A stretch of 61,333 nucleotides of DNA from Acidimicrobiia bacterium (GTDB lineage Bacteria; Actinomycetota; Acidimicrobiia; Spongiisociales; UBA5794): NCBI GenBank assembly GCA_036396535.1, contig DASWKR010000056.1, positions 1 through 61,333 of the forward strand, given 5' to 3'. A model generated the notes under the pieces. The model did no database searches. It was not told where the DNA came from and saw nothing but the letters and a program-made list of their open reading frames with translations. Positions 6,440 through 22,786 of the stretch are shown one piece after another. The stretch's first letter is position 1. Every line of letters begins with the position of its first letter. The translations under genes were made by a program, and so were the position numbers.

Positions 6440-7603
6440 ATGGCAACGAGCCACACTCTCCATCATCGCGACGAGCTCGAGTTGATCGCCTCCGCCGCCG
6501 CCGTCCCGATGCTCATCGTCGACTACACCCCGATCATCGAGCACTTCGCAGGTTTGGCGCCGCCCGAGGTGGCGCTGCGGCTGGCAGACGACGGAGAGCT
6601 GATCCGCTGCCTACGGCTGCCGCGCGTCCTCGCCGTGAGCCCGCAGTGGATCGACCTCTACGGGTCCCCGCTCGCCCCCGAGCCGCCCGACCTCGATGCA
6701 CGCCAGTTCACGCCTGCCACCCACCCCGACCTCGCCACCTCGATGCGGCTCCAGTTCCTGGCGCCCTTCACAGGTGAGACGTCGATCGTCCGTGAGCACT
6801 CGGCGCCCACGATGCTCGGCGACGTCGTGGTCCGATCGCATTGGAAGGCGGCTCTCGACGGCGGCCGGCCGGATTACACGAGGGTCGTGATCGTCGACCA
6901 CAACGTCACGGACCTGCGGGCGGCTCTCAGATCGCTCGAGGACGCCCTCGAGTCGCGGGACCGCCTCGTGGCGACTGTTGGTCACGAGCTGAGGCACCCC
7001 GTCAGTGCCATGGTCGGGTTCGGGGCGATCCTCCTCGACGGCTGGGACGACCTGTCCGACGAGGAACGCAAGGAGCTCGTCGGAACGCTCGTCACACAGG
7101 CCGACGACATCACGGTTCTGATGGACGATCTGCTCACCGCCGCCACCAGCAGGTCGATGGCCGTCGCTTCCGAGCAGCTCGACATGGCGACCGTCCTGGA
7201 ATCGGTCGACCTGCGCGAGGTCGACGTGATGGTGGAGGTTGGGCTTGCGGTGCTCGGCGACGCGCTGCGCATCAGGCAGATCGTGCGAAACCTCGTCGGG
7301 AACGCCCGGAAGCACGGCGGGGGGCGCGTCGAGCTCGCAGCGACGACGGCGGCGCACGGCGTCACCGTCACGGTCACCGACGACGGCGCCGGGATACCGG
7401 AGGATGTCGCCGTTCGGTTGTTCGAGCTGTTCGCGCACGGCGGGGCGTCGGGATCGCTCGGAATCGGGCTGGCGGTGTCCCGCATGCTGGCGCGCGCCAT
7501 GGGAGGCGACCTGAGCCTCGTGAGCGCCCGAGGCCCGACGATCTTCGAGCTGACGCTGCCGGGCGTCGATTCGCCGGTGCCGGCATCCGGCCTACCCGGC
7601 TGA
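6440..7603 (+). CDS. Orphan cytosolic sensor histidine kinase
   Basis: 387 residues with no membrane segment. An N-terminal PAS-like sensor region spans about 10-155. A short helical linker (LRSLEDALESRDR) leads to the HisKA domain, whose phospho-acceptor is His182 in GHELRHP; the residue after LR is His where most kinases have Thr. The ATPase domain has its N-box at LVGNARKH (Asn288), DGAGIP at 315-320 and GIGLA at 341-345. The start is ATG 6440; a TTG lies just before it and no good ribosome site is visible. No response regulator lies nearby, so its partner is encoded elsewhere. Confidence 0.85.
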   Translation: MATSHTLHHRDELELIASAAAVPMLIVDYTPIIEHFAGLAPPEVALRLADDGELIRCLRLPRVLAVSPQWIDLYGSPLAPEPPDLDARQFTPATHPDLATSMRLQFLAPFTGETSIVREHSAPTMLGDVVVRSHWKAALDGGRPDYTRVVIVDHNVTDLRAALRSLEDALESRDRLVATVGHELRHPVSAMVGFGAILLDGWDDLSDEERKELVGTLVTQADDITVLMDDLLTAATSRSMAVASEQLDMATVLESVDLREVDVMVEVGLAVLGDALRIRQIVRNLVGNARKHGGGRVELAATTAAHGVTVTVTDDGAGIPEDVAVRLFELFAHGGASGSLGIGLAVSRMLARAMGGDLSLVSARGPTIFELTLPGVDSPVPASGLPG

Positions 7604-7741: not shown

Positions 7742-8761
7742 ATGTCCCGCAGAATCCAGTTGCTCGTGTTCGCCTCCCTCACCGTCGTCGCGGCGTGCGG
7801 TGGGGCCGCAAGCGATGACCCGGCGACGACAGCGCCGGTCGAAACGGCGGCCACGTCGACGACCGAAGCATCCGAGACGACGTCCGCACCGACGTCCGCA
7901 CCGACGACGGCGCCGACGACGGCGCCGACGACGGTCGCTCCCGTGGACACCGGCGACGCCGCTGGCCTCATTGCCTCGGTCACCAGCGCCGGGAACGACG
8001 TGCAGTCCGCCGAGATGGTGATGACCTTCGCCGTCGAAGGCGTCGAGGGGCTGCCGGGATCATCCTTCGAGTTCGGCATGAACACGGCCTTCGATCTCGA
8101 GAGCCGCCTCTTCTCGATGTCGATGGACATGAGCGACCTGGTGGCCGCCGCCCCGGAAGGCGAGATCCCGCCCGAGATGGCCGACCTGTTCAGCAGCATC
8201 GAGATCCGGTCGATCGAGGACACCGCATACGTGAAGTTCCCGTTCTTCAACTCAATCCTCGGAGTCGAGACCGAGTGGATGAGCATGGCCGCCGAGGATG
8301 CCGACCTGGCGGCCGAGGGCTTCGGCGCCAACGCTCCGACGAACCCTGCCGAGATGCTCGAGGCGTTCGAGGGCTTCGAGGGAGCGACTGTCACGGAGCT
8401 GGATCGCGAGACGCACAACGGCATCGAGACGACCCATTACGCCATCGTCGTCGACATGGAGCAGGCGACCGAGCTCGCCGACCCCGCGGATCTCGAGGAC
8501 CTCGAGCAGTTCGGCGCCTTGCCCGGGGGTGAGCTGCCGATCGACCTCTGGGTGAGCGATGACGGTCTCATCCGCAAGCTGCAGATGGTGTACGCCGGCG
8601 ATGGGCTCGAGCTCTCCCCCGAGCAGACGTTCGAGTCGATGACGATCACGATGGAGGTGACCTCCTACAACATGCCCATCGTCGTCGAGGCACCGCCCGC
8701 CGGCGAGGTCACCGACGTATCCGACATCGCAGGCGACATGTTCTCCGGCTTCACCGGCTGA
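7742..8761 (+). CDS. Secreted lipoprotein, LppX/LprG-like fold
   Basis: 339-residue predicted lipoprotein. The signal peptide ends in a lipobox VVAAC with the lipidated Cys at residue 19. A Thr/Ala/Pro-rich linker with repeated TSAP and TTAP units (about residues 30-62) leads to a globular domain of about 270 residues with alternating strands and acidic surface segments. The domain resembles the LppX/LprAFG lipid-carrier fold of actinobacteria, but this is recognition by general pattern and not by a firm motif. The ATG at 7742 is preferred over 7733 because the GAGG site is nine bases away. A perfect inverted repeat follows the stop codon. The ligand is unknown. Confidence 0.75.
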   Translation: MSRRIQLLVFASLTVVAACGGAASDDPATTAPVETAATSTTEASETTSAPTSAPTTAPTTAPTTVAPVDTGDAAGLIASVTSAGNDVQSAEMVMTFAVEGVEGLPGSSFEFGMNTAFDLESRLFSMSMDMSDLVAAAPEGEIPPEMADLFSSIEIRSIEDTAYVKFPFFNSILGVETEWMSMAAEDADLAAEGFGANAPTNPAEMLEAFEGFEGATVTELDRETHNGIETTHYAIVVDMEQATELADPADLEDLEQFGALPGGELPIDLWVSDDGLIRKLQMVYAGDGLELSPEQTFESMTITMEVTSYNMPIVVEAPPAGEVTDVSDIAGDMFSGFTG

Positions 8762-8770
8762 GCACCGCCG

Positions 8771-8814
8771 TCTTGCGTCCCCCCATCGCTTCGATGCGGC
8801 GAGGGGACGCAAGA
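8771..8814 (+). terminator. Perfect 12-bp inverted repeat after the lipoprotein gene
   Basis: TCTTGCGTCCCC at 8771-8782 pairs exactly with GGGGACGCAAGA at 8803-8814 around a 20-base loop, nine bases after the lipoprotein stop. There is no U-run after it, which is common for actinobacterial terminators. A terminator or transcript-end stabiliser is the likeliest role. Confidence 0.6.
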
Positions 8815-8840
8815 ACGAAGCCCGAACGGAGCAAGACCGT

Positions 8841-8887
8841 ACAAACTACTTGCGGAGGTTTGTTTGTTTAGTTAACTTTCATTCCTG
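8841..8887 (+). promoter_or_regulatory. Promoter and ROK-type operator of the amino-sugar operon
   Basis: A -35-like TTGCGG (8850-8855) and a -10-like TAACTT (8873-8878) are 17 bases apart. The -10 box ends nine bases before the ATG, so the first transcript is probably leaderless. The region is AT-rich against a GC-rich background and holds ACAAAC (8841-8846) inverted against GTTTGT (8858-8863, repeated at 8862-8867), plus the palindrome AGTTAACT (8870-8877) over the -10. GTTTGT-type arms resemble operators of ROK/XylR repressors, so autoregulation by the next gene is likely. Confidence 0.55.
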
Positions 8888-22106: not shown

Positions 22107-22150
22107 GCGGTGAGAGCATTCTCATCGGCATCTCATGGTGATCTCACCGC
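22107..22150 (+). promoter_or_regulatory. Tandem TCTCA repeats with 11-bp spacing, inside an inverted repeat
   Basis: TCTCA occurs at 22120-22124, 22131-22135 and 22142-22146, exactly 11 bases apart, which puts all three on one face of the helix. This is the layout of OmpR/PhoP-type response-regulator sites, and the unit resembles the CTCAG repeats of the mycobacterial MprA box. In addition GCGGTGAGA (22107-22115) and TCTCACCGC (22142-22150) form a perfect 9-bp inverted repeat. The site lies about 52 bases upstream of the secreted repeat-protein gene. Confidence 0.5.
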
Positions 22151-22201
22151 TGCCCGGCAGTCTGGTGCTCAGGAATCACCACCGCCATGAAAGGCTCCCT
22201 C

Positions 22202-22786
22202 ATGAAACGCCTGCTGTTCACGATCACGCTCGTGATGTCCGCATCCCTGCTCGTCGCCGCTCCGGCCTCAGCCGATGATCGTCGCTGCACCGGAACGATC
22301 GGTGCGACTCATATCGACGGCAACGTCATCGTCCCACAAGGTGCAGATTGCACCCTGCGAGGCACCCGCGTCGACGGAAATGTGATCGTCAAGGGAGACG
22401 CCAAGCTCGTCGCACGCGGCGTGAAGGTGGACGGGAACATCCAGGCGGAGAACCACCGCAACGTGATCGTGACCACCCGTGAGGTCGGTGACCGGACGGT
22501 GAAGTCCCGCGTCGAGGGAGACATCCAGCTCGATTCCGGCAAGCGTGGCAGGGTCGCCAAGGCCGTCATCGGCGGCGATCTCCAGGTGAAGCAGAACTCC
22601 GGGCGTCAGGTCGCCGTCCACAATCGGATCGATGGTGACCTGCAGGCGTTCAGCAACGACGGCGGCTTCCGCATCTATCGCAACCAGATCGACGGCAACC
22701 TGCAGTGCAAAGGCAACGACCCGAAGCCTCACGGTGGCCAGAACCAGGTGTCGGGCAACAAAGAGGATCAGTGCAGCAGTCTCTGA
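22202..22786 (+). CDS. Secreted beta-solenoid-like repeat protein
   Basis: 194-residue exported protein that I do not recognise as a named family. A signal peptide (residues 1-21, ending in APASA) is followed by about seven units of the form (R/K/H)-(I/V)-D-G-(N/D)-(V/I/L)-(I/Q), such as HIDGNVIV, RVDGNVIV, KVDGNIQA, RIDGDLQA and QIDGNLQC. Units are roughly 18-25 residues apart, as expected for a right-handed beta-helix of the bactofilin type. Three cysteines (one near each end of the repeats and one near the C-terminus) could form a disulfide. An ATG 15 bases upstream (22187) is possible, but AAAGG precedes the one chosen. The promoter carries a response-regulator-like site. Confidence 0.7.
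   Translation: MKRLLFTITLVMSASLLVAAPASADDRRCTGTIGATHIDGNVIVPQGADCTLRGTRVDGNVIVKGDAKLVARGVKVDGNIQAENHRNVIVTTREVGDRTVKSRVEGDIQLDSGKRGRVAKAVIGGDLQVKQNSGRQVAVHNRIDGDLQAFSNDGGFRIYRNQIDGNLQCKGNDPKPHGGQNQVSGNKEDQCSSL

Follow-up and report, generated by a model that had tools for sequence, protein, structure and literature searches.

A conserved four-box promoter element of Actinomycetota is linked to an OmpR-type two-component system and precedes a predicted exported beta-helix protein

The window (the whole 61,333-nucleotide stretch of DNA analyzed here) contains a conserved unit that is four boxes plus a -10, rather than three boxes. The 22111–22163 segment is most likely a promoter, with a predicted -10 CAGTCT and no good -35. 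Taken together, the comparisons below make it likely that this promoter is activator-dependent and that an OmpR/PhoB regulator of the type encoded on contig C77 of the same genome turns on an exported surface beta-helix protein and its own operon. The reading that the sequences support best is control of the window gene by the C77-type two-component system, and in this reading binding, activation, autoregulation, and surface location are steps that we infer.

The three TCTCA units described in an earlier note are present at 22120, 22131, and 22142, with a spacing of exactly 11. The perfect outer inverted repeat described there is also present, as the 9-base pair of arms GCGGTGAGA (22107–22115) and TCTCACCGC (22142–22150). 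The interval 22111–22146 reads TGAG-N6-CTCA-N7-CTCA-N7-CTCA and is followed by N11 and the -10-like CAGTCT. Column frequencies show that the TGAG core is conserved elsewhere and that the outer GCGG/CCGC part is not. The outer inverted repeat was rejected as a functional unit because it is not conserved. The features of the element are:

22107–22150, no strand assigned: perfect 9-base outer inverted repeat, of which only the TGAG/CTCA cores are kept elsewhere
22111–22114, plus strand: TGAG, the inverted first box (TNAG), kept exactly 6 bases before the first CTNA
22121–22124, plus strand: CTCA box 1, within TCTCA 22120–22124, from the sequence and the 40-element alignment
22132–22135, plus strand: CTCA box 2, within TCTCA 22131–22135, from the same two sources
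22143–22146, plus strand: CTCA box 3, within TCTCA 22142–22146, from the same two sources
22158–22163, plus strand: CAGTCT, inferred -10 hexamer (NANNNT), from the column bias at these offsets in 40 elements

The predicted -10 comes from an alignment of all 40 distinct exact copies of the element in the DNA examined, only two of which come from the window's genome. An A in 37 and a T in 35 of the 40 define NANNNT located 11 bases after the last CTNA, and the search pattern did not select these two columns. The boxes are tandem repeats of about 11-base period, as in direct-repeat promoters. The -10 columns and the 11-base distance place the array, by sequence, over the -35 and against the -10. 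Class II promoters activated by PhoB-type regulators have this layout, with boxes at an 11-base period in place of the -35. The repeats could instead be a repression operator or another DNA structure: part of the array is inverted (TGAG/CTCA), and a protein bound to the third box, between the -35 and the -10, could block polymerase. We regard this as decidedly unlikely. The fixed 11-base distance to the -10 with no -35, the placement on the same strand as the gene, and the presence of the element on the regulator's operon all fit activation, and the window sequence has no run of T downstream of the repeats.

Conservation of the element was measured in the 220-base regions upstream of 27 actinobacterial homologues of the protein, a set that omits L032, L035, and L041 (no start or upstream DNA) and includes L031, whose start is doubtful. 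The common architecture is TNAG-N6-CTNA-N7-CTNA-N7-CTNA. It occurs at exact spacing in 10 of the 27 regions, compared to 0/27 for each of 124 alternative spacings, and in 11/27 with up to one mismatch. The repeats are kept before orthologues. The element ends 43–69 bases before the start codon in nine of the ten exact cases and 6 bases before it in the tenth, L031. Because individual boxes are shared, it is expected that some neighboring spacings also match, in up to 6/27 regions at one mismatch and 11/27 at two. At two mismatches, 12 regions also match on the opposite strand; therefore, weight is given only to the exact and one-mismatch counts. Sixteen of the 27 regions, some of them from distant homologues, lack the element even at one mismatch, and none of five non-actinobacterial upstream regions has it at up to two mismatches. 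Upstream of the Nonomuraea gerenzanensis homologue, the element is incomplete, with 2 mismatches. Boxes in family f71 can have CTAA in place of CTCA.

Genome-wide searches gave the same picture. Across 396 genomes of the phylum, the strict pattern matched 26 times, in 18 genomes that span 10 families, and the reversed control matched once. With up to one mismatch, 60 relatives gave 20 matches compared to three for the control. A set of 16 genomes that carry the protein gene gave 25 element matches versus one for the control. In the window's own genome (3.13 Mb), the pattern matches perfectly at two sites and with one mismatch at two more, and the reversed control matches once. The one-mismatch match on contig C34 of this genome falls where another kinase gene (L073) ends and was taken as chance. 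Short repeats can arise by chance, and the element might be no more than such repeats upstream of an unrelated gene. The likelihood of this is negligible, since a search allowing one mismatch found the TCTCA triplet at a single place in the window and in none of 100 dinucleotide shuffles, and the exact spacing is conserved in other families of the phylum.

The gene behind the window element encodes a 194-residue protein with these features:

22202–22786, plus strand: exported right-handed beta-helix protein (predicted) of a DGN-repeat family, stop included
22189–22194, plus strand: GAAAGG, likely ribosome-binding site for ATG 22202, from the sequence
22202–22273, plus strand: likely signal peptide MKRLLFTITLVMSASLLVAAPASA, read from the sequence, with low pLDDT at residues 1–15

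ATG 22202 is more likely the start codon than 22187 because it follows GAAAGG at a distance of 7 bases and marks the point where the Nocardioidaceae orthologue starts with MKRLLFT. This orthologue, from a metagenome-assembled genome (MAG), is 63% identical (L010). Homologues were detected in 3/60 relatives (the window's genome included), 6/395 genomes of the class, and 21/396 genomes of the phylum. Named homologues come from Nocardioidaceae, Chromatiaceae/Thiocapsa, Leptolyngbyaceae, and Anaerolineaceae MAGs or genomes, and the plasmid records contributed one, from Nonomuraea gerenzanensis.

The proposal that the protein is a beta-solenoid was borne out by structure prediction. The AlphaFold2 model (11 sequences) is all-beta, not disordered, with a mean pLDDT of 91.5 (about 98 in the core) and a pTM of 0.84, and the predicted parallel strands coil at one rung per about 20 residues into a right-handed beta-helix. 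Seven DG(N/D) repeats had been counted in the protein; five are strict DG[ND], and seven are reached only by counting EGD and GGD. Q128/Q148/Q168 and N132/N152/N172 recur at 20-residue steps and are invariant or nearly so. Cys29, 50, 169, and 191 are invariant along with Gly/Asn/Gln of the rungs. VIA-align matched the model to right-handed beta-helices at Z 13–15, including the alginate lyase 6kfn (Z 14.7, rmsd 2.6, 161 residues), and Foldseek against the PDB gave no match at E ≤ 0.001. The closest folds in VIA-align are alginate and pectate lyases and epimerases, so the protein might cleave wall or capsule glycans as a polysaccharide lyase or epimerase. This is unlikely given that the protein is short (about 170 residues) and only 4–16% identical to the lyase and epimerase rows, that no enzyme family reaches cut-off in Pfam or NCBIfam, and that the invariant residues are mainly rung G, N, Q, and D plus Cys.

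No Pfam or NCBIfam family of any kind reaches its cut-off with the window protein, and no named family for it was found in these libraries or in the open-licence papers searched. Its score with the beta-solenoid repeat PF24078 is 20.3 bits, below the gathering score of 27, and homologue L013 scores 30.7. Ten homologues were scanned for surface domains, and SLH was found in three, CWB2 in two, and RTX in one, which implies a surface role. The window protein has no SLH, CWB2, or RTX match at E up to 10, and it may be secreted or wall-associated. Gene structure varies within the family. In L013 and L014 (Anaerolineaceae), a single protein has two tandem C-terminal beta-helix domains, which in L013 follow DUF5667 and DUF5666. 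The beta-helix gene of L062 (G010:C240, about 8277–8848) has its signal peptide and its body in different frames, either because of an assembly frameshift or because it is a pseudogene.

The other perfect copy of the element in the window's genome (C77:2967–3002, minus strand) lies 56 bases before the gene for a 194-residue exported protein that contains ADSP repeats. Next come genes for a histidine kinase with HAMP, HisKA, and HATPase_c domains and then for an OmpR-type regulator. The tail of the ADSP-repeat protein has a calculated pI of 4.05. The C77 features are:

G000:C77 2329–2910, minus strand: ADSP-repeat exported protein (L072), head of the histidine kinase–response regulator operon
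C77:160–822, minus strand: OmpR-type response regulator

The regulator scores 90.6 bits with PF00072 and 97.5 bits with PF00486, and the receiver plus Trans_reg_C winged helix assign it to the OmpR/PhoB type. It falls below the TIGR01387 subfamily cut-off for heavy-metal response regulators (210.8 versus 279.2 bits). A one-mismatch copy of the element, C77:4234–4269, precedes a gene whose product we take to be APH-like; this protein has no Pfam or NCBIfam match. In G503, a genome of another family, an element with a kinase-fold gene, an element with the acidic protein, histidine kinase, and regulator genes, and an element with a beta-helix gene are contiguous. The beta-helix homologue is directly behind the regulator there, with a perfect element in between. 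The window itself contains a histidine-kinase-like stretch at 6914–7561 that is 31% identical to the C77 kinase.

Regulator orthologues (E ≤ 1e-75) were found at 37 places in 35 of the 396 phylum genomes, and these loci (387,819 bases) were picked by regulator similarity alone. The exact pattern gave 13 matches in 11 loci, compared to one for the other 124 spacings together. With up to one mismatch, the element is present in 20/37 loci and the reversed pattern in 0/37. One of the 20 instances, L212, is probably chance. The surrounding DNA examined at the other 17 loci, some on short contigs, has no element; four large genomes from a single genus (f78 g206) are among them. With kinship ignored, the element co-occurs across the 396 genomes with the regulator (13/18 versus 22/378, Fisher p 1.2e-11) and with the protein family (9/18 versus 12/378, p 1.8e-8), and the regulator co-occurs with the protein family (8/35 versus 13/361, p 1.5e-4). 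Three of the 60 relatives have the regulator (G000, G010, G057); all three carry element matches at up to one mismatch, and so do 10 other relatives. One named regulator homologue, again from Nonomuraea gerenzanensis, is in the plasmid records.

Another OmpR-type regulator, such as MtrA, could bind the element and have the C77-type system as just one more target. Five of the 18 element-bearing genomes lack a C77-type regulator at the E ≤ 1e-75 threshold. An excerpt of a 2026 study (PMC13189361) gives TCTCAAG as a half site of Streptomyces venezuelae MtrA at its own promoter, and the conserved MtrA letters in that excerpt, T at position 1 and C at position 4, are both satisfied by the TCTCA repeats. 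Against this, the element clusters at C77-type regulator loci and co-occurs with the regulator, which is itself not MtrA (189 bits with the equivalog NF040689, cut-off 300), and Streptomyces and mycobacterial MtrA sites, in the published excerpts, are GTnAC- or GTCACA-type repeats. We consider binding by another regulator quite unlikely and retain the C77-type regulator.

The recognition helix was considered as a source of the CTCA and CTAA variants. Family f71 regulators read VRYLRSK and most others VGYLRRK or VGYLRKK; no claim is made because VRYLRRK is also found with CTCA elements. Two f71 genomes of genus g285 (G573, G650) encode a more distant regulator, about 52% identical (L179, L181), with CTAA-type elements and a beta-helix gene within about 8 kb. 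In G523, a fragment that matches only the C-terminal half of the regulator (L068, 6353–6667) adjoins a beta-helix gene and may be a remnant or an assembly gap.

The targets of the 40 exact elements were tallied by reading the loci; beta-helix genes are over-represented among them because they served to choose many of the loci. Ten elements precede beta-helix genes; 11, small low-complexity exported proteins that are mostly Asp/Ser/Pro/Thr-rich; six, other exported proteins or lipoproteins; five, kinase genes of APH-like or Ser/Thr type, one confirmed by its Pkinase domain; two, enzymes (ATP-grasp-like and epimerase-like); and one, a paralogous regulator. One is likely chance, and four have no assigned target. 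Low-complexity, often acidic exported proteins are at the same place as the C77 one in L111, L118, L123, L189, and L196. Genes with a kinase fold (Ser/Thr protein kinase or APH-like) recur beside the two-component system or a beta-helix gene in L053, L118, L052, L072, L189, and L213 and have element copies of their own.

In the proposed mechanism, the phosphorylated OmpR/PhoB-type regulator of C77, encoded with its histidine kinase in the same genome, would bind CTNA-N7-CTNA-N7-CTNA as a tandem array, and TNAG would be an extra inverted contact. The array would lie directly upstream of a -10 with no good -35, and RNA polymerase would be recruited as at PhoB class II promoters. One output would be the beta-helix protein, exported to the cell surface and probably capped by disulfides. 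The regulator's own operon, headed by the acidic exported Asp-Ser-Pro-repeat protein, and the neighboring kinase-fold gene would be parallel outputs. The acidic protein could modulate the sensor or serve as its ligand, and the kinase could be a second input to the regulator. That the signal is some envelope or ionic stress is a guess, as is surface structure or glycan binding as the task of the beta-helix protein. The earlier note's broader reading stands in part: for the response-regulator-type element, through conserved spacing, a fixed -10, and linkage to an OmpR-type system, and for the beta-solenoid fold. The outcomes that the note set as refuting, a different or disordered fold and repeats that are not kept before orthologues, did not appear.

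We think it fairly probable that these loci form an undescribed Actinomycetota envelope regulon, in which one OmpR-type system acts at the four-box class II promoter TNAG-N6-CTNA-N7-CTNA-N7-CTNA-N11-NANNNT on its own operon, an APH-like or Ser/Thr kinase, and the surface beta-helix family. The mechanism is ordinary; the regulon and the protein family are apparently undescribed, and a search of open-licence PMC papers found no printed description of the element or regulon. An orphan motif and an unnamed secreted protein become a defined, testable regulon with a named regulator, putative site, -10 box, and targets, and the element can be searched for in any actinobacterial genome. The beta-helix family gains a first functional context across Actinomycetota, and a few other phyla have the family without the promoter element. 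The repeated grouping of a sensor and regulator with an acidic exported repeat protein and a kinase-fold gene raises the question of how envelope signals are sensed in these bacteria.

In the Pho-box promoters of Escherichia coli the array abuts the -10, and the window element likewise abuts its predicted -10. Direct repeats are usual at the sites of OmpR-type regulators, and Corynebacterium glutamicum MtrA and PhoR use direct 8-base repeats with a 3-base linker (PMC3353115, in excerpt); the 11-base-period direct repeats of the element resemble these boxes, to which winged-helix regulators bind. The element differs from the MtrA, PhoR, and Pho boxes in its letters (CTNA), in having three direct boxes and one inverted TNAG, and in its regulator and targets. 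The closest solved relative of the C77 regulator by sequence is PrrA of Mycobacterium tuberculosis (PDB 1ys6; 180 bits over receiver and winged helix), a likeness that gives the nearest solved structure only. CutRS and CssRS of Streptomyces (secretion stress) are similar as actinobacterial two-component control of exported proteins. CutR was rejected as the regulator of the element because its site is TAWATAAA (PMC12802291, in excerpt), whereas the window element consists of CTNA repeats. The predicted fold of the window protein is that of the right-handed parallel beta-helices of alginate and pectate lyases, NosD, and tapirin (Z 13–15), but the protein is smaller, its identity to them is 4–16%, and it has no family model at cut-off. 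Caulobacter YjbI is a secreted pentapeptide-repeat envelope protein, described in a paper that, in the portion available, also mentions two-component systems (PMC12864828). The window protein is likewise a predicted exported repeat protein, with DGN repeats and an actinobacterial host rather than the pentapeptide repeats and Gram-negative outer membrane of YjbI.
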